From assembly GCF_001870905.1 (NCBI RefSeq), contig NZ_LNDC01000171.1, forward strand, positions 1 through 32,283: 32,283 nucleotides of DNA, given 5' to 3'. A program made the translations under genes and the position numbers. Below the pieces are notes generated by a model. It was not told where the DNA came from, did no database searches, and saw only the letters and a list, made by a program, of their open reading frames with translations. Source of the stretch: Geitlerinema sp. PCC 9228 (GTDB lineage Bacteria > Cyanobacteriota > Cyanobacteriia > Cyanobacteriales > PCC-9228). Below, one piece after another: positions 18,254 through 24,040 of this stretch; position 1 is the stretch's first letter; each line of letters begins with the position of its first letter.

Positions 18254-18523
18254 ATCGATGAACCATCCCCACCTGCCGCGTTGGCTAATTCCTTGCTTTT
18301 GCTTACCACAAAATCGGCATTTTGTCAAGAAATCTAAACCGATCTCCAAGGGCAGTTTGCCCCACCCCGCATCGAAACCCTAGCCGCGCGCAGTTTGGTC
18401 AGCTGCCATCCATCCCCAACCAGGCTTGCAAGAACGAGACATATTGCAAGAAATCATTCAATAGGACCCATCTGCTTTTCAAGAATTATTCCCCCAATTC
18501 GTGCAGCGCCCGGAGGTCACATC
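18254..18523. other. 270-bp gap with a trace of decayed coding sequence
   Basis: In the second half the plus strand reads GLQERDILQEII, a stop, then DPSAFQELFPQFVQRP, a coding-like helical stretch broken by one TAG and overlapping the CHAT gene start. It may be the end of a lost gene. No terminator was seen after thiD. Confidence 0.3.
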
Positions 18524-19909
18524 GTGGCAAGACAACAGCACCGATTCTTAACAAAATCCTTTTTCGGTTTCGTCACCAGCGTTCCCTTGTGGGGCACTCT
18601 TTTGAGTGGATGGGCAGTGGCTCAAACCTCCTCTCTACCATCTCATTTTGGCACCTGGGAAATTTCTCCCATGACCCCGCAACAAGTGGCAGCACGCGCT
18701 ACCGAGTTAGAAAATAATTGGGAAGAGGTTTATGAAAGCTATTTTGAAACCAATTTATCAACCGTCGAAATTACGGGGCAAGAAATTCCCAAAACCTTAG
18801 AAAAAATTAGCCAAGCAACGGATAACCAGACAGCCCTGATTTATGTCGATGCTACCCCTTCCCACTTACAAGTATTGGCTTTTGCCCCCGGTCGTTCGCC
18901 CAAAGGCTATATTGTGCCCGAAGCCAAGCGCGAATTGGTTTTAGAAACCGTCAAAAACTTGCGCGCCCACATTACCAATCGCCGCCAGCGCCGCAATCAA
19001 ACTTATATAAATGCAGCTAGCAAACTCCACAATTGGATAATTGGTCCCTTACAGGGTTACTTTCAGGGAGGAGAAAATCATATTTCCATCGATACTTTGC
19101 TGTTTTGTATGGGAAGTGGCTTGCGATCGCTTCCTTTATCCGCTTTGCACGACGGCGAACAATTTCTCATCGAACAATACAGTTTGGCCATCATTCCTGC
19201 TTTCAACATGATTGACACCCAACCCGATGCTGACAGCAGTGATAGAACCAACGTACTCGCCATGGGCAGGTCGGAATTTGAGGATTTTACCCCATTGCCA
19301 GCCGTTCCCATCGAACTGGAAACCGTTCTAACCGGCGATTGGACGGGCAAATCTTTCTTAAATCAAGGATTTACTTTGAACAAACTGCGATCGCAGCTCC
19401 AAAATTCCGTTGATATCGTCCATTTAGCCACCCACGCCAGATTTGAAACCGGAGAATTAAAAGATTCCTTTATCCAATTGTGGGATACCCAACTAACGCC
19501 CCCAGAATTACGCCAACTACCCTTTGCCGAATTCGCCATCAACCTATTGGTATTGAGCGCCTGTCAGACAGCCTTGGGCGCAGGCAACGCCGAATTGGGA
19601 TTTGCCGGATTGGCCGTCAACAGCGGCGTACAAACCGCCTTGGCTAGTATTTGGCAAGTAAGCGACGCCGGTACTTTAGCGTTAATGGGCAAATTTTACC
19701 AACACTTGCAAGACCATTCCCTCAAAGCCGAAGCCTTACGCCAGGCACAGCTAGATTTACTCAATCAAGCCGTACGCTTGGAAAACGGTTCCCTGCGCGG
19801 GGTTCGCGGTGCCGTGGCTTTGCCCCCAGAACTCAACAACTTGCCCAACGAAAACCTTTCCCATCCTTACTATTGGGCGGGATTTGTGACCATCGGCGCT
19901 CCTTGGTAA
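18524..19909 (+). CDS. CHAT-domain protein with N-terminal signal peptide
   Basis: 461 aa from GTG 18524, preferred over an upstream in-frame start because of a perfect GGAGGT six bases before it and because it reveals a signal peptide: basic start MARQQHRFLTK, hydrophobic core about 12-30, and an AxA-like site WAVAQ at about 30-34. The caspase-like CHAT domain occupies roughly 190-460, with the catalytic dyad H304 (VHLATHARF) and C347 (LLVLSACQTALG), and the family end SHPYYWAGFVTIG. Cyanobacterial CHAT proteins usually carry TPR repeats; this one has none, only a helical region (about 50-180). Export suggests a peptidase acting outside the cytoplasm. Convergent with the GH3 gene, 14 bp apart. 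Target unknown. Confidence 0.9.
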   Translation: MARQQHRFLTKSFFGFVTSVPLWGTLLSGWAVAQTSSLPSHFGTWEISPMTPQQVAARATELENNWEEVYESYFETNLSTVEITGQEIPKTLEKISQATDNQTALIYVDATPSHLQVLAFAPGRSPKGYIVPEAKRELVLETVKNLRAHITNRRQRRNQTYINAASKLHNWIIGPLQGYFQGGENHISIDTLLFCMGSGLRSLPLSALHDGEQFLIEQYSLAIIPAFNMIDTQPDADSSDRTNVLAMGRSEFEDFTPLPAVPIELETVLTGDWTGKSFLNQGFTLNKLRSQLQNSVDIVHLATHARFETGELKDSFIQLWDTQLTPPELRQLPFAEFAINLLVLSACQTALGAGNAELGFAGLAVNSGVQTALASIWQVSDAGTLALMGKFYQHLQDHSLKAEALRQAQLDLLNQAVRLENGSLRGVRGAVALPPELNNLPNENLSHPYYWAGFVTIGAPW

Positions 19910-19923
19910 ACGGGAAAATGCCA

Positions 19924-21612
19924 TTATTCTTCCAATCGCACTTCTTCCAGAACCGGCAATCCATCCAACCAATTGCGGTCTTCCGTGAGATGGGGGAATT
20001 TTAATTGCGATTCGGCAACGCCCTGTTGCAGCATCCGCTGGCGCAACCGTTCAAAACTACCCGGTGCCATAATGCGCAAGCGTGGTAGGGGAATTTGGTC
20101 GTGCCGCTTGATGGCATAAAATTTCTGCACCTCTTTCATGACTTCGTCAAACCGTTGCAAAAACTGTTTGGGATGGGATAAATGCGATTGCCGGGAAGCC
20201 AGTTCGATATTGACCAAATAGTGTGCGGGTGCAGCATCTTTGCTAAGGGTGATGCAGAAATTTTCTAGGGAAATTTGAAATTCTTCCTGCAAACGACGCA
20301 TGACTTCCACCACGTGAGCTTCGGTGGTTTTTTCGGTGGAAGATGACATGACGTTGCCTTGGCGATGGAGAAAGGTAAACAGAGGTGCTTGGTTGTAGAA
20401 ACCAGTAACCTCGATAATATCGCCCAAATCGTAGCGATAGAAACCGCTGTAGTTGCTGAAAACCACGCGATAGCGTTCTCCCACTTGGGCTTCGGTGGGG
20501 AGGATGGTTTTGGGAAATTCAGCATCCCATTGGTCTTGGGGAATGAATTCCAAAAAGGTACTTTCCATGGCGGGAAGGCAGGTATCGTCGTTGAGGTCGT
20601 GGTGAATGCCCAGAACCCCTTCCGCACAAGAATAAGTTCCGCCGAAAATAGGCGTATCGCCGAAATATTCGGGAAACTTTTGAAAATAAAAGTTGGAAGT
20701 ACCGCCGCGCGCGGTGACGATAAAAGAAAGGTGGGGCCACGCGTGTTTGGGAGTCAGGTGACCGTATTTTTGGACGATTTGGCGCAATTCGGCAGCTCGT
20801 TGGGGGTGGGGAGATAGTTTTGGTTCCAGTCGGCTGCGAATATCTTGGCTGTCACCGTCAATGGGTAGCCAGGAGGCGATGGTACCTTTCTCTAAATCGT
20901 CAATTAAAGATTCGCTGTATTCGCTGAGACGATCGCACATTTGTAAGGCTAGCACGGGAAAGGTAGCCCCAATGACCCGCAGTTGGCGGTTGCGCAGGGC
21001 AAACAAGAGGCAGGCGTAGTAGCGGGCTGGGGTATCGGCAATTTCAAAGGTTTCAAAGGGATGGGCAAATACCTGCCGGGAGAGTCTATCTGTCAACCGC
21101 GCGTCGCTGGTACTGACGGGGGCATAGGGGATGCCGCTGGGGGTGATGCCGTGGGAATTTGCGGAAATGGGATAGAGAAATTCTCCTAAAGGTCGATTTT
21201 GACGGGCAGCGGCGGCTACGCCAAATCCGGCGGCGGTGCGGTTGGAACGAGCGAGAACCCGGCGCGATCGCTTGGTGACGGGAATCAGCTTTTTGGTTCC
21301 CGTAGAACCGCTGCTGATATTAAAATAAATAAGTGGATCGGCGACGAGAACGTTGGGTTCGCCGTTTGCCATGCGTTGGGTGTAGGGTTCAAATGCCTGA
21401 TAAGACTGTACGGGAATTCGTTCGCGAAACTGGTCGATGGTTTGGATATCGGCAAAGCCGTACTCGCGCCCAAAAGCCGTATCTTGGTGGGTTTGCAGTA
21501 GCGATCGCAAAAACTTTTCTTGTACCTCATCCATGCGATGGGTTTTGCGCAGGAAATTCCATCGAGACCAATAGGCGATCGCTGTGAAAGCCGAAAATGC
21601 TAAATTCCTCAT
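19924..21612 (-). CDS. GH3 auxin-responsive-promoter family acyl-amido synthetase
   Basis: 562 aa, typical for the GH3 family of adenylate-forming enzymes. In plants these activate a carboxylic acid with ATP and couple it to an amino acid. ATP-binding motif 1 is FNISSGSTGTKKLIPVTKRS (about 98-117). Other family features: GGTYSCAEGVLGI (about 300), and YRVVFSNYSGFYRYDLGDII (about 378-397), which contains the second and third nucleotide-binding motifs. The C-terminal domain begins around TFLHRQGNVMSSSTEKTTEA. The N-terminus (FSAFTAIAYWSRW) could be a short membrane-associated helix. Bacterial substrates are largely unknown. The upstream gene on the same strand is a cysteate-synthase-like enzyme, 94 bp away, which suggests that the amino acid partner could be cysteate. 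Confidence 0.92.
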   Translation of the reverse strand: MRNLAFSAFTAIAYWSRWNFLRKTHRMDEVQEKFLRSLLQTHQDTAFGREYGFADIQTIDQFRERIPVQSYQAFEPYTQRMANGEPNVLVADPLIYFNISSGSTGTKKLIPVTKRSRRVLARSNRTAAGFGVAAAARQNRPLGEFLYPISANSHGITPSGIPYAPVSTSDARLTDRLSRQVFAHPFETFEIADTPARYYACLLFALRNRQLRVIGATFPVLALQMCDRLSEYSESLIDDLEKGTIASWLPIDGDSQDIRSRLEPKLSPHPQRAAELRQIVQKYGHLTPKHAWPHLSFIVTARGGTSNFYFQKFPEYFGDTPIFGGTYSCAEGVLGIHHDLNDDTCLPAMESTFLEFIPQDQWDAEFPKTILPTEAQVGERYRVVFSNYSGFYRYDLGDIIEVTGFYNQAPLFTFLHRQGNVMSSSTEKTTEAHVVEVMRRLQEEFQISLENFCITLSKDAAPAHYLVNIELASRQSHLSHPKQFLQRFDEVMKEVQKFYAIKRHDQIPLPRLRIMAPGSFERLRQRMLQQGVAESQLKFPHLTEDRNWLDGLPVLEEVRLEE

Positions 21613-21683
21613 AAAACAACCAACCTGTTAACCGCAAAGGCAGAATAGAGACTTGGGCACGAGCGCTATCAAACAGCGAATCA

Positions 21684-21709
21684 TAGGGTCGATTCGCGAA
21701 TCGATCCTA
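21684..21709. repeat. 26-bp palindrome overlapping a stop codon
   Basis: TAGGGTCGATTCG with its near-perfect complement (13 pairs, one G-T), a member of the TAGGG...CCTA palindrome class. The last three bases supply the TAG stop of the minus-strand gene at 21707, so it may also act as its 3' hairpin. Confidence 0.6.
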
Positions 21710-23086
21710 CGCAAAAGGTCGTTCTCTTCCCAAGCGAACGTCAAACCAAGAACCGGAAGTAGGAGACAGCACAAAATCGGCAGACCATGGCTGCCTACCC
21801 AACTCTCGCTGCATGCGCTTGATGCCACCGCTGGTAATATTTAACAAAACGCATTCATCCTTATTGACTTTACCAGCTTCTACAGCCTGGATCAACGCTG
21901 CCGTTGCTACTCCCGATGCGGCACTAATATCAATTCCTTCCAATCGTTCGAACAACCAGCGAGCGTAGCTACAAGCCTGGTTACCAACAGCATACATATT
22001 TCCTCCCGTATCGGTTAGCGCATCGTACAAACCACCAGGCATGGCATAGGCAGGATTGCGATTGGTGAGAACTTGAGCCAAAACTTGCTGAATTTGCGAT
22101 CGCGCGATCGCTTCCGGTGGCCTATTCAGCGAACGGCTTTGTGCGTGCCAAGCATCTACCATGGGGGTAAAGGGCGCATTTTGTGCCAAATGCAATCTCA
22201 TGCGTTTTTCTCCAAAGCGACCATCTTCTAGCAACCGCAAATTCGCTTCCCAAGCCGCGATCGCACCTGTTCCCGAACCCACAGCCTGAAAATAGCTATC
22301 GGGAATTTCCCCCAACGTCACCGCTGCTTCTAAAACTGTTACCCCCATCCCATCCCGTCGCGCCACATTCAAGACCCCACCTTCCGGGAAAAAACCGTTT
22401 TGAGTAGCAATGGAACGAGCAATGGCAATAGCATCGGAGTAGTCGCTGTTGTCAGCAACGGCAACCAAACGAATGGAAGAGGCATTTTGGGGCAACTTGC
22501 CGTTGGTACTCCAGATTTGAGACAAACTACTTTCGGGAACCACCAAACAAATGGGGAAATCGAGGGTTTCTCCCACATGGGCAAATGCCCGCCCTGTATT
22601 CCCCGCAGAAGCCAACGTCAGCATACGATGGCAATTGGGAGGAATTCTGGCGAGTACGCAAGCCGCTTCTAACTCTTTAAAAGAACCAGTAGCCAGGGCA
22701 GCCTGTTTTTCCGGCCAGTAGCCGTTAAAACAGATATAAAGGCGCTCTAAACCCAAATAGGCAGCGAGCTTCTGGCTTTGATAGACAATGGGTTTGCCAG
22801 CAACATCTAAAGCACGGTTCACTGGCAACCAATCGATATAGCGGAAAATTCCAGGTAGTTGGGGTTTGACTTGGAGCTGTTTTTGGGAATAGACGGTGCG
22901 TAACAAAGATCCGGATTCCCGACAGCGATCGCAATGCAATCGAAACGGATGGGGCGGATATTCGATACCGCAGGAAAGGCAACGGAGGGTGTAGCGATAG
23001 GAAGGCGAACGACCGCCGCGATCGCCAGAAACTGGATCGAGCGATACCAGTTCCTGTTGGTTGTGGCTACGGCTACGATGGGACAT
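21707..23086 (-). CDS. Cysteate synthase-like PLP enzyme (threonine synthase superfamily)
   Basis: 459 aa, fold-type II PLP enzyme. An N-terminal zinc-ribbon-like element has C36/C39 and C52/C55 (LRCLSCG, HCDRC). PLP lysine K137 lies in ATGSFKELEA. The phosphate and cofactor loops are TLASAGNTGRAFAHV, FPEGGVLNVARRDGMG and AVGSGTGAIAAWEANLRL. The region FNGYWPEK before the lysine, LAQNAPFTPMVDAW and MPGGLYDALTDTGG match archaeal cysteate synthase as I remember it (methanogen coenzyme M pathway; O-phosphoserine plus sulfite gives L-cysteate) better than ordinary threonine synthase. So cysteate synthesis is a strong guess. Threonine synthase activity is the main alternative. It lies upstream of and co-directional with the GH3 gene. 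Confidence 0.85.
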   Translation of the reverse strand: MSHRSRSHNQQELVSLDPVSGDRGGRSPSYRYTLRCLSCGIEYPPHPFRLHCDRCRESGSLLRTVYSQKQLQVKPQLPGIFRYIDWLPVNRALDVAGKPIVYQSQKLAAYLGLERLYICFNGYWPEKQAALATGSFKELEAACVLARIPPNCHRMLTLASAGNTGRAFAHVGETLDFPICLVVPESSLSQIWSTNGKLPQNASSIRLVAVADNSDYSDAIAIARSIATQNGFFPEGGVLNVARRDGMGVTVLEAAVTLGEIPDSYFQAVGSGTGAIAAWEANLRLLEDGRFGEKRMRLHLAQNAPFTPMVDAWHAQSRSLNRPPEAIARSQIQQVLAQVLTNRNPAYAMPGGLYDALTDTGGNMYAVGNQACSYARWLFERLEGIDISAASGVATAALIQAVEAGKVNKDECVLLNITSGGIKRMQRELGRQPWSADFVLSPTSGSWFDVRLGRERPFA

Positions 23087-23410
23087 CTATAAGGGAAAGG
23101 GTCAGGGTTTCAAAATGCACGTTTTCCTACTTTACATGTATTTGTTGGTATTCTCGGTGGAAAATTTCCCAATATTTAACAGATGGCTGTATGAAAAGCA
23201 TGGATTTGCCCGATGAGACAAATAGGCAAATTGTTCTAAAATTTTTCCTTCACAAGGCAACTGCGAAACTCAAACCTTTTGCCTCTGTGCCAAAATGCCG
23301 CCTTCTCAAAAAGTTTCTCCTCAGGTATCTACTTGTGGTAAAATTTTTGCAATTTGAAAACCGCACAACCAGCACCAGCAAGTGCCTACGCTTGGTTAAC
23401 GGCTACTGCT
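23087..23410. other. 324-bp divergent gap upstream of ureA
   Basis: AT-rich in the middle. A possible -10 box TAAAAT at about 23338 lies 70 bp before ureA. I looked for an NtcA site (GTA-N8-TAC), expected for nitrogen genes, and saw none with correct spacing. No gene or strong hairpin was seen. Confidence 0.5.
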
Positions 23411-23713
23411 ATGCAACTAACGCCCCAAGAAAAAGACAAACTTATGGTATTCACCGCTGCCTTGCTAGCGGAACGACGACTGGCGAAAGGTCTGAAGCTC
23501 AACTATCCCGAAGCTGTGGCTTATATTACGGCAGGAATTTTGGAAGGCGCGCGGGAAGGGCGTACGGTGGCCGATTTAATGAGTTATGGCGCTACTTTGC
23601 TGACCCGCGATGACGTAATGGAAGGCATCCCGGAAATGCTGCCGGAGGTGCAGGTAGAAGCAACCTTTCCCGACGGTACGAAATTGGTCACCGTTCACAA
23701 TCCCATTCGATAA
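23411..23713 (+). CDS. ureA: Urease gamma subunit
   Basis: 100 aa, the standard length. The start is ATG 23411 because it gives the family N-terminus [20 protein letters not shown]; the frame is open upstream to a TTG at 23354, but that segment is not urease-like. Conserved features: [20 protein letters not shown] (about 26-45) and [20 protein letters not shown] (about 71-90). UreA is the small structural subunit of the nickel urease trimer in the cytosol and has no catalytic residues of its own. No clear Shine-Dalgarno sequence. ureB follows after 15 bp. Confidence 0.98.
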
Positions 23714-23728
23714 CTAGCGAGATTAGCC

Positions 23729-24040
23729 ATGATTCCAGGCGAAATGATTCCCCAAGCCGGCGACATCGAACTCAATGCCACGCGCCCGATTACTACCGTA
23801 CGGGTAGCCAACAGCGGCGATCGCCCCATTCAAGTAGGGTCTCATTTTCATTTTTACGAAGCTAACGCAGCGTTGCTATTCGAGCGCGAGCCTACCAAAG
23901 GCATGCATTTAAACCTTCCCGCCGGCGCGGCTGTTCGGTTTGAACCTGGCGACGAACGGGAAGTGGAATTGGTTCCCTACGCCGGCAGCCGCCATGTATA
24001 TGGATTTAACGCGCAAGTCAATGGTGCTTTGGATAGTTAA
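23729..24040 (+). CDS. ureB: Urease beta subunit
   Basis: 103 aa, the usual length. It begins [20 protein letters not shown] and contains [20 protein letters not shown] (about 27-46) and [20 protein letters not shown] (about 65-84), which are family signatures. It is the beta structural subunit of urease. The catalytic alpha subunit gene ureC does not follow; ispF does, three bases later. So the urease operon is split, and UreC and the nickel-insertion proteins UreDEFG must be encoded elsewhere if the enzyme is functional. Confidence 0.98.

Follow-up and report, generated by a model that had tools for sequence, protein, structure and literature searches.

A putative cysteate synthase beside a GH3-family amide ligase in a cyanobacterium suggests an undescribed sulfonated lipid or conjugate

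We found that a 32,283-nucleotide stretch of DNA from Geitlerinema sp. PCC 9228 (hereafter the window) carries a gene for an enzyme that, to judge by its sequence, very probably makes cysteate from O-phospho-L-serine and sulfite, next to a gene for a GH3-type amide ligase, a class of enzyme that couples amino acids to acids, fatty acids among them. The synthase belongs to a known family; for its presence in this cyanobacterial lineage no earlier report was found. The new element is its pairing with GH3, from which we suggest a sulfonated lipid or conjugate not yet described. Cysteate is chiefly known as the compound from which some methanogens build coenzyme M and Bacteroidota their capnine lipids. 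A synthase beside an amide ligase points to a phototroph-made sulfonate pool, of which we found no report and which is a possible food for sulfonate-degrading bacteria; it also makes cysteate a concrete candidate amine substrate for a bacterial GH3 enzyme. A first-pass annotation of this DNA, in which GH3 did not figure, had supposed that cysteate in a cyanobacterium would lead to another sulfonate product, an idea strengthened by the GH3 partner. The features of the locus are collected in Table 1.

Table 1. Positions, within the window, of the two genes and of the residues discussed in the text.
Feature	Positions	Strand	Basis or remark
Putative cysteate synthase, clade I, 459 aa	21707..23086	minus	TIGR03844, PDB 9k3c match, tree, AF2 model
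Codon of K137, presumed PLP lysine by position (SFKELEA)	22676..22678	minus	Invariant in 38 aligned rows
N-terminal Cys cluster C36/C39/C52/C55	22922..22981	minus	Sequence and alignment
GH3 acyl-acid amido synthetase, 562 aa	19924..21612	minus	Pfam GH3/GH3_M/GH3_C, predicted fold
GH3 residues 164-170	21103..21123	minus	Residue set of clade-I-linked GH3s, aligned to plant GH3
Synthase-GH3 gap, 94 bp	21613..21706		GH3 downstream, same strand

A member of the cysteate synthase family

The first-pass annotation had read 21707-23086 as an enzyme of PLP fold-type II resembling archaeal cysteate synthase. The open reading frame is real, on the minus strand and with exactly these limits (its plus-strand translation contains nine stops): the match to the model TIGR03844 (cysteate_syn) reached 498.2 bits for a cut-off of 324.9, with residues 32-435 aligned on positions 1-393 of 398, and an E-value of 1.4e-149 is not chance. 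The threonine synthase model thrC (TIGR00260), in contrast, gave 30.4 bits, below its cut-off of 167.1. The fold-type was confirmed by the Pfam PALP score (99.6 bits, cut-off 35) and by structure prediction, in which solved cysteate and threonine synthases came nearest. Among solved chains the closest is PDB 9k3c, titled CapA2 of Alistipes finegoldii (E = 8.9e-114). The AF2 model (pLDDT 90.7, falling below 50 at residues 1-22, N-terminal to the conserved part) also resembled this structure most (TM 0.87, 46% identity), and the next fold matches were threonine synthases with E-values around 1e-19 and 20-24% identity.

Threonine synthase as the identity of this protein was rejected on the low thrC score together with the finding of two other genes above the thrC cut-off. 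The host genome has eight PALP matches in all, window synthase included, and the two of the seven others that were compared with NCBIfam, C46 (337.6 bits) and C10 (342 bits), both exceed that cut-off. The protein moreover groups in a tree with cysteate synthases, apart from threonine synthases. With this placement and the two other genes passing thrC, neither of the sequence-level objections to the first reading, kinship with threonine synthases or the lack of any other threonine synthase in the genome, arose. Membership in the cysteate synthase family is thus indicated by profile, residue conservation, tree and predicted fold. What did not stand is the restriction to archaea, as the family also has members in Bacteroidota, Spirochaetota and Aminicenantes, and the CapA2 structure.

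The five segments quoted by the first-pass annotation were all found, starting at residues 120, 132, 158, 300 and 349. By its position, we take K137 to be the lysine that binds PLP. The window synthase keeps 78 of the 80 columns that are invariant among 22 non-cyanobacterial rows and differs at two. The two CxxC pairs noted earlier are present and perhaps form a metal ribbon. In the 38-row alignment C36, C39 and C52, together with H56, occur in all 15 other cyanobacterial rows, the three cysteines are kept in all six Methanosarcinales-type rows, none of the ten Bacteroidota rows has all three together, and the complete second pair (C52/C55) is found in the window synthase alone. Given this variation, the CxxC pairs are not diagnostic for cysteate synthase.

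Distribution and phylogeny of the synthase

Two overlapping cyanobacterial samples of 388 genomes each were searched, one at the level of the class and one of the order (G000 and G372 belong to both). The synthase was present in 14 class-sample and 11 order-sample genomes, amounting to 23 distinct genomes. A scan of named genomes with an alignment query, which is no census, yielded at least 80 loci; those among the matches listed come from Moorena, Symploca, Leptolyngbyaceae, Lyngbya, an uncultured cyanobacterium, Spirochaetota, Aminicenantes, Bacteroidota and archaea, the latter mostly Methanosarcinales-type. A quick tree of 97 rows was built with two threonine synthase rows as outgroup; L108, L116 and L127 were lost to the ORF filter, L074 and L078, which duplicate sampled genomes, were excluded, and the label 'cyano_sample' is a default one, also borne by L080 (Aminicenantes) and L145 (an archaeon). 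The window synthase falls in a clade of 20 cyanobacterial rows (clade I, branch value 100), which lies within a group of 90 rows that also takes in archaea and Bacteroidota (100) and adjoins a Spirochaetota/Aminicenantes group (87). Five other cyanobacterial rows (L037, L038, L039, L167 and L168) form clade II, placed outside the other 90 rows (100). Of the same 80 columns, clade II synthases keep just 69-73 (one of the changes is T273A, within the GSGTG loop), which makes their activity less sure. No report of cysteate synthase or cysteate-derived products in cyanobacteria was found in the literature searched, which covered few subscription journals; in the accessible portion of PMC12172450, which mentions cyanobacteria, cysteate appears just in a reference title.

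A GH3 enzyme next to the synthase

The downstream gene encodes a protein with the N, M and C domains of GH3 (273, 79.2 and 70 bits, cut-off 23.6 each), whose predicted fold is nearest to plant GH3.6, GH3.5 and JAR1 and which is the single PF03321 match in the host genome. On its other side lies a convergent gene for a CHAT-domain protein (18395-19909, plus strand, 199.7 bits). Upstream of the synthase lie genes for urease gamma and beta and then ispF (23354-24040, plus strand); the gene that comes next does not encode the alpha subunit.

In 15 of the 23 positive genomes, including 13 of the 14 in the class sample, GH3 and synthase are no more than 2 kb apart; the order sample added nine positive genomes, of which G465 and G551 have GH3 near the synthase (G408, G514 and G524 were scored on loci L072, L073 and L075). 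The two genes are direct neighbours on the same strand in ten genomes, with gaps of 21-213 bp. Other arrangements were seen: a VTT protein separates them in G115, a racemase and a methyltransferase in G372 (L037:7724-9325), they are divergent in G159 and convergent in G551, and in G465 GH3 precedes the synthase, from which two ORFs separate it. The cultured relative Lyngbya confervoides BDU141951 (L078) carries the pair as well. The G042 GH3 is cut by a contig end and that of G240 is broken into four ORFs. In the remaining eight positive genomes (G282, six of Moorena/Symploca type and G605) no GH3 was seen in the stretch around the synthase, which in G605 is a short contig; G282 has its GH3 on another contig, beside a decarboxylase, and G605 a 30% identical partial match. 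These eight genomes count against a general partnership of the two genes. Nor was GH3 near the synthase in L076, outside both samples, or in any of the 73 non-cyanobacterial loci (L077 and L079-L150, 3-21 kb each) among the matches listed.

Two kinds of synthase paired with different GH3s

A GH3 tree of 53 rows was computed from which GH3s shorter than 450 aa, including those of G042 and G240, were left out. Nine GH3s linked to clade I synthases are split from 43 others by a branch with a value of 98; the very long row L215 falls on the clade-I-linked side, a placement that is unsure. The four GH3s linked to clade II synthases sit among the 43 others, in three places as drawn. Since clade-I- and clade-II-linked GH3s are apart in the tree, the pairing seems to have evolved repeatedly, and that two kinds of synthase are each accompanied by GH3s of separate regions of the tree speaks for a functional link.

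A residue set at positions 164-170 of GH3 is suggestive. A164, T168, S169 and D170 are common to all eight clade-I-linked rows that were compared (the nine of the tree less L035, a near copy of L033), while each occurs in at most two of 14 unlinked rows. In plant GH3.5, GH3.6, OsGH3-8 and VvGH3-1 the aligned segment reads PVLTSYYKS. GH3.12, which uses glutamate, has a T-S pair there too, so that the set is not specific for aspartate-like amines, and it is not common to the three clade-II-linked rows, which we counted against our preferred reading. In the partly accessible literature that was searched, no residue-level text was found on the plant GH3 residues binding the amino acid.

A proposed two-gene pathway

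We give about an even chance to the reading in which the minus-strand pair, from 23086 to 19924, forms a two-gene pathway where cysteate is made and then joined by GH3 to yield N-acyl-cysteate. In a first step, for which the sequence support is strong, the PLP enzyme would convert O-phospho-L-serine and sulfite to L-cysteate. With ATP, GH3 would then convert a carboxylic acid (a free fatty acid is the likeliest) to its adenylate, which the alpha-amine of cysteate would attack, giving N-acyl-cysteate and AMP. What results would be an amino-acid lipid or conjugate that bears a sulfonate. Cysteate is the sulfonate analogue of aspartate. Aspartate is a substrate of the plant (Arabidopsis) enzymes GH3.2 and GH3.5, according to the accessible part of PMC11253546. 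In a few relatives cysteate may be altered before joining, by the racemase and methyltransferase of one genome or, in two, by a decarboxylase leading to taurine. The G372 racemase has as its best model the cysteate racemase CuyB (123.6 bits, below the cut-off of 190) and passes the general amino acid racemase cut-off. The wider reading, that cyanobacteria make N-acyl-cysteates, and N-acyl-taurines in some lineages, with a synthase and GH3 pairing that arose repeatedly and stands apart from the capnine route of Bacteroidota, is put forward tentatively, at somewhat under an even chance.

Genome-level association and the capnine-type alternative

In the class sample GH3 was found somewhere in the genome of all 14 synthase-positive members, compared to 98 of the 374 negative ones (Fisher p = 1.5e-8, kinship ignored, and the genomes counted are related to each other). 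A serine-palmitoyltransferase-type AONS showed nearly the same distribution (14/14 versus 104/374, p = 3.3e-8). Among AONS-positive genomes, GH3 is present in 14/14 with synthase and 68/104 without (p = 0.004); among GH3-positive genomes, AONS is present in 14/14 and 68/98 (p = 0.009). AONS being tied as tightly to the synthase, it is gene adjacency and not co-occurrence in genomes that points to GH3. The synthase is absent from 98 of the 112 GH3 genomes of this sample, hence GH3 has other jobs.

This distribution of AONS fits a capnine-type sulfonolipid, in which cysteate and an acyl thioester would be condensed by an AONS-family enzyme and the resulting base N-acylated by GH3 or by the f19 protein beside the AONS, as in the sulfobacins of Bacteroidota. 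The host genome has an AONS gene on contig C89 with f19 alongside, which shares 77% identity with the GH3-linked AONS family of other cyanobacteria; its PDB matches are serine palmitoyltransferase (133.6 bits) and cysteate-C-fatty acyltransferase (111 bits), and G551 has AONS, Rieske, f19, cysteate synthase and GH3 together. However, the host AONS and synthase lie on separate contigs, the AONS is 31% identical to a spirochaete CFAT-like protein and stays below every NCBIfam cut-off, and the 104 class-sample genomes with AONS and no synthase indicate that AONS usually acts on another amino acid. We consider this route unlikely. The AONS is one of three host matches to a CFAT-like query, the others being a BioF (442.9 bits, over the cut-off of 426.45) and a third, weakest one; the f19 protein has no family or PDB match.

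GH3 genes of cyanobacteria also have lipid-type neighbours, which we counted in favour of the N-acyl-cysteate reading. Among 19 GH3 neighbourhoods from synthase-negative class-sample genomes (L169-L187), 12 carry and seven lack at least one of fatty acid hydroxylase, Mpo1-like, Amidohydro_2, AONS, Rieske, f19 and OlsC-like, families chosen for their recurrence there and labelled from a Pfam/NCBIfam scan of one member each; the OlsC-like hydroxylase scored 283.6 bits for a cut-off of 450. AONS is present in 82 of 112 GH3 genomes and 36 of 276 others in the class sample. AONS, Rieske, MFS, GH3, OlsC-like, f19, fatty acid hydroxylase, Mpo1-like and amidohydrolase genes recur as a set, in varying subsets, at L172, L182, L187, L209, L212, L214, L221 and L222. 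In G057, which lacks the synthase, the gene immediately preceding GH3 in the same orientation (L184:7806-9098) encodes a threonine-synthase-family protein (thrC 173.1 bits, cut-off 167.1), which hints at a possible recurring pattern of GH3 adjoining a gene for the making of an amino acid.

Decarboxylase contexts and the remaining alternatives

The decarboxylase genes found in some relatives raise the possibility that cysteate is converted to taurine, either as a free product or as the amine for GH3 (N-acyl taurine). In G115 a PF00282 decarboxylase follows synthase, VTT and GH3 on the same strand, in G282 it adjoins GH3, and in Moorena-type genomes it lies in or near the synthase clusters. When the G115 protein was used as query over the 23 positive genomes, matches of at least 52% identity came from the six Moorena/Symploca-type genomes and G282, and matches of 33-34% from the host genome and G372; at E ≤ 1e-60 none was found in the other 14 of the 23, nor in any of the ten other genomes with a clade I synthase beside GH3. 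For the host we rejected taurine for want of a close decarboxylase: its one PF00282 match is 33% identical and on another contig than the synthase. Overall, the taurine route appears distinctly unlikely at this locus.

The six Moorena/Symploca-type genomes belong to one family and are to be read as one contrast, not six. At E ≤ 1e-40 GH3 is absent from four of them, and the matches in G438 and G550 are 29% and 50% identical. At L071, L072, L075, L163, L164 and L165, all of this type, the synthase is clustered with a PF00282 decarboxylase, and most of these clusters also contain a TauD-methyltransferase fusion and methyltransferases, the parts varying by locus. They look like clusters for taurine and N-methylated taurines. 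With the same synthase clade accompanied by a decarboxylase and methyltransferases instead, one precursor seems to lead to two sulfonate products.

A third alternative questions the synthase itself, which could be a fold-type II beta-replacement enzyme of this family that in the cell takes a different nucleophile or carries out threonine chemistry. Belonging to the family is no proof of the substrate, and the window enzyme departs from two of the 80 otherwise invariant positions. We hold this to be quite improbable, however, in view of the profile and fold of a cysteate synthase, of the place of clade I among Methanosarcinales, Spirochaetota and Bacteroidota members, of the two other genes over the thrC cut-off and of the racemase and decarboxylase neighbours in relatives, which fit cysteate. 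Coenzyme M biosynthesis as in Methanosarcinales, which shares its first enzyme's family with the window, is hardly credible: the search of the host genome for the beta subunit of sulfopyruvate decarboxylase gave at best 36.9 bits, in a 643-aa frame (cut-off 221.5, passed by two of 14 control genomes), and this route was disfavoured.

Comparison with known systems

The cysteate synthase of Methanosarcinales was reportedly described by Graham and co-workers in 2009. The window enzyme belongs to the same family (TIGR03844), with 45-47% identity over six Methanosarcinales-type rows and shared conserved columns, but organism, neighbours and cysteate fate differ, and sulfopyruvate decarboxylase beta was not found here. 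CapA2/Cys of Bacteroidota (9k3c), at 46% identity the closest solved fold, feeds the synthesis of capnine sulfonolipids according to the accessible part of PMC11211663, where the next enzyme is an AONS-type CFAT/SulA, whereas the gene linked in the window is GH3. The same source gives sulfonate fragments at m/z 79.957 and 80.965 for sulfonolipids in negative mode. Among the matches listed, five of the 70 loci L081-L150 have CFAT-like genes and none has GH3. In two Spirochaetota loci (L103:2389-4959 and L135:10013-12638) an AONS-family enzyme, assigned by PF00155 in L103 and 57% identical in L135, comes after the synthase; these are perhaps capnine-type sulfonolipid genes outside Bacteroidota. 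In the first step catalysed by SulA/CFAT, as given in the available text of PMC9304779, cysteate is the head-group precursor, as it would be here, but that reaction is a carbon-carbon condensation and the window has an amide ligase.

On the GH3 side, the nearest solved relatives are the plant enzymes GH3.5, GH3.6, OsGH3-8, VvGH3-1 and JAR1 (TM mostly 0.80-0.87, 20-25% identity), whose acyl substrates are hormones; the window GH3 would most likely take a free fatty acid. OlsH, a GH3-like enzyme of planctomycetes, is described in the accessible part of PMC12493201 as N-acylating ornithine with free fatty acids and ATP. Glutamate was not used according to the same part, which we counted against the N-acyl-cysteate reading; cysteate is mentioned nowhere in that paper, and the OlsH model (NF052613) gives the window GH3 110 bits, far under its cut-off of 620. 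The two enzymes have the GH3 family in common and, by analogy, may share N-acyl amino acid chemistry, with another amino acid expected for the window enzyme; in the part of PMC12493201 that was accessible, the OlsH authors likewise expect different amino acids for other GH3s.
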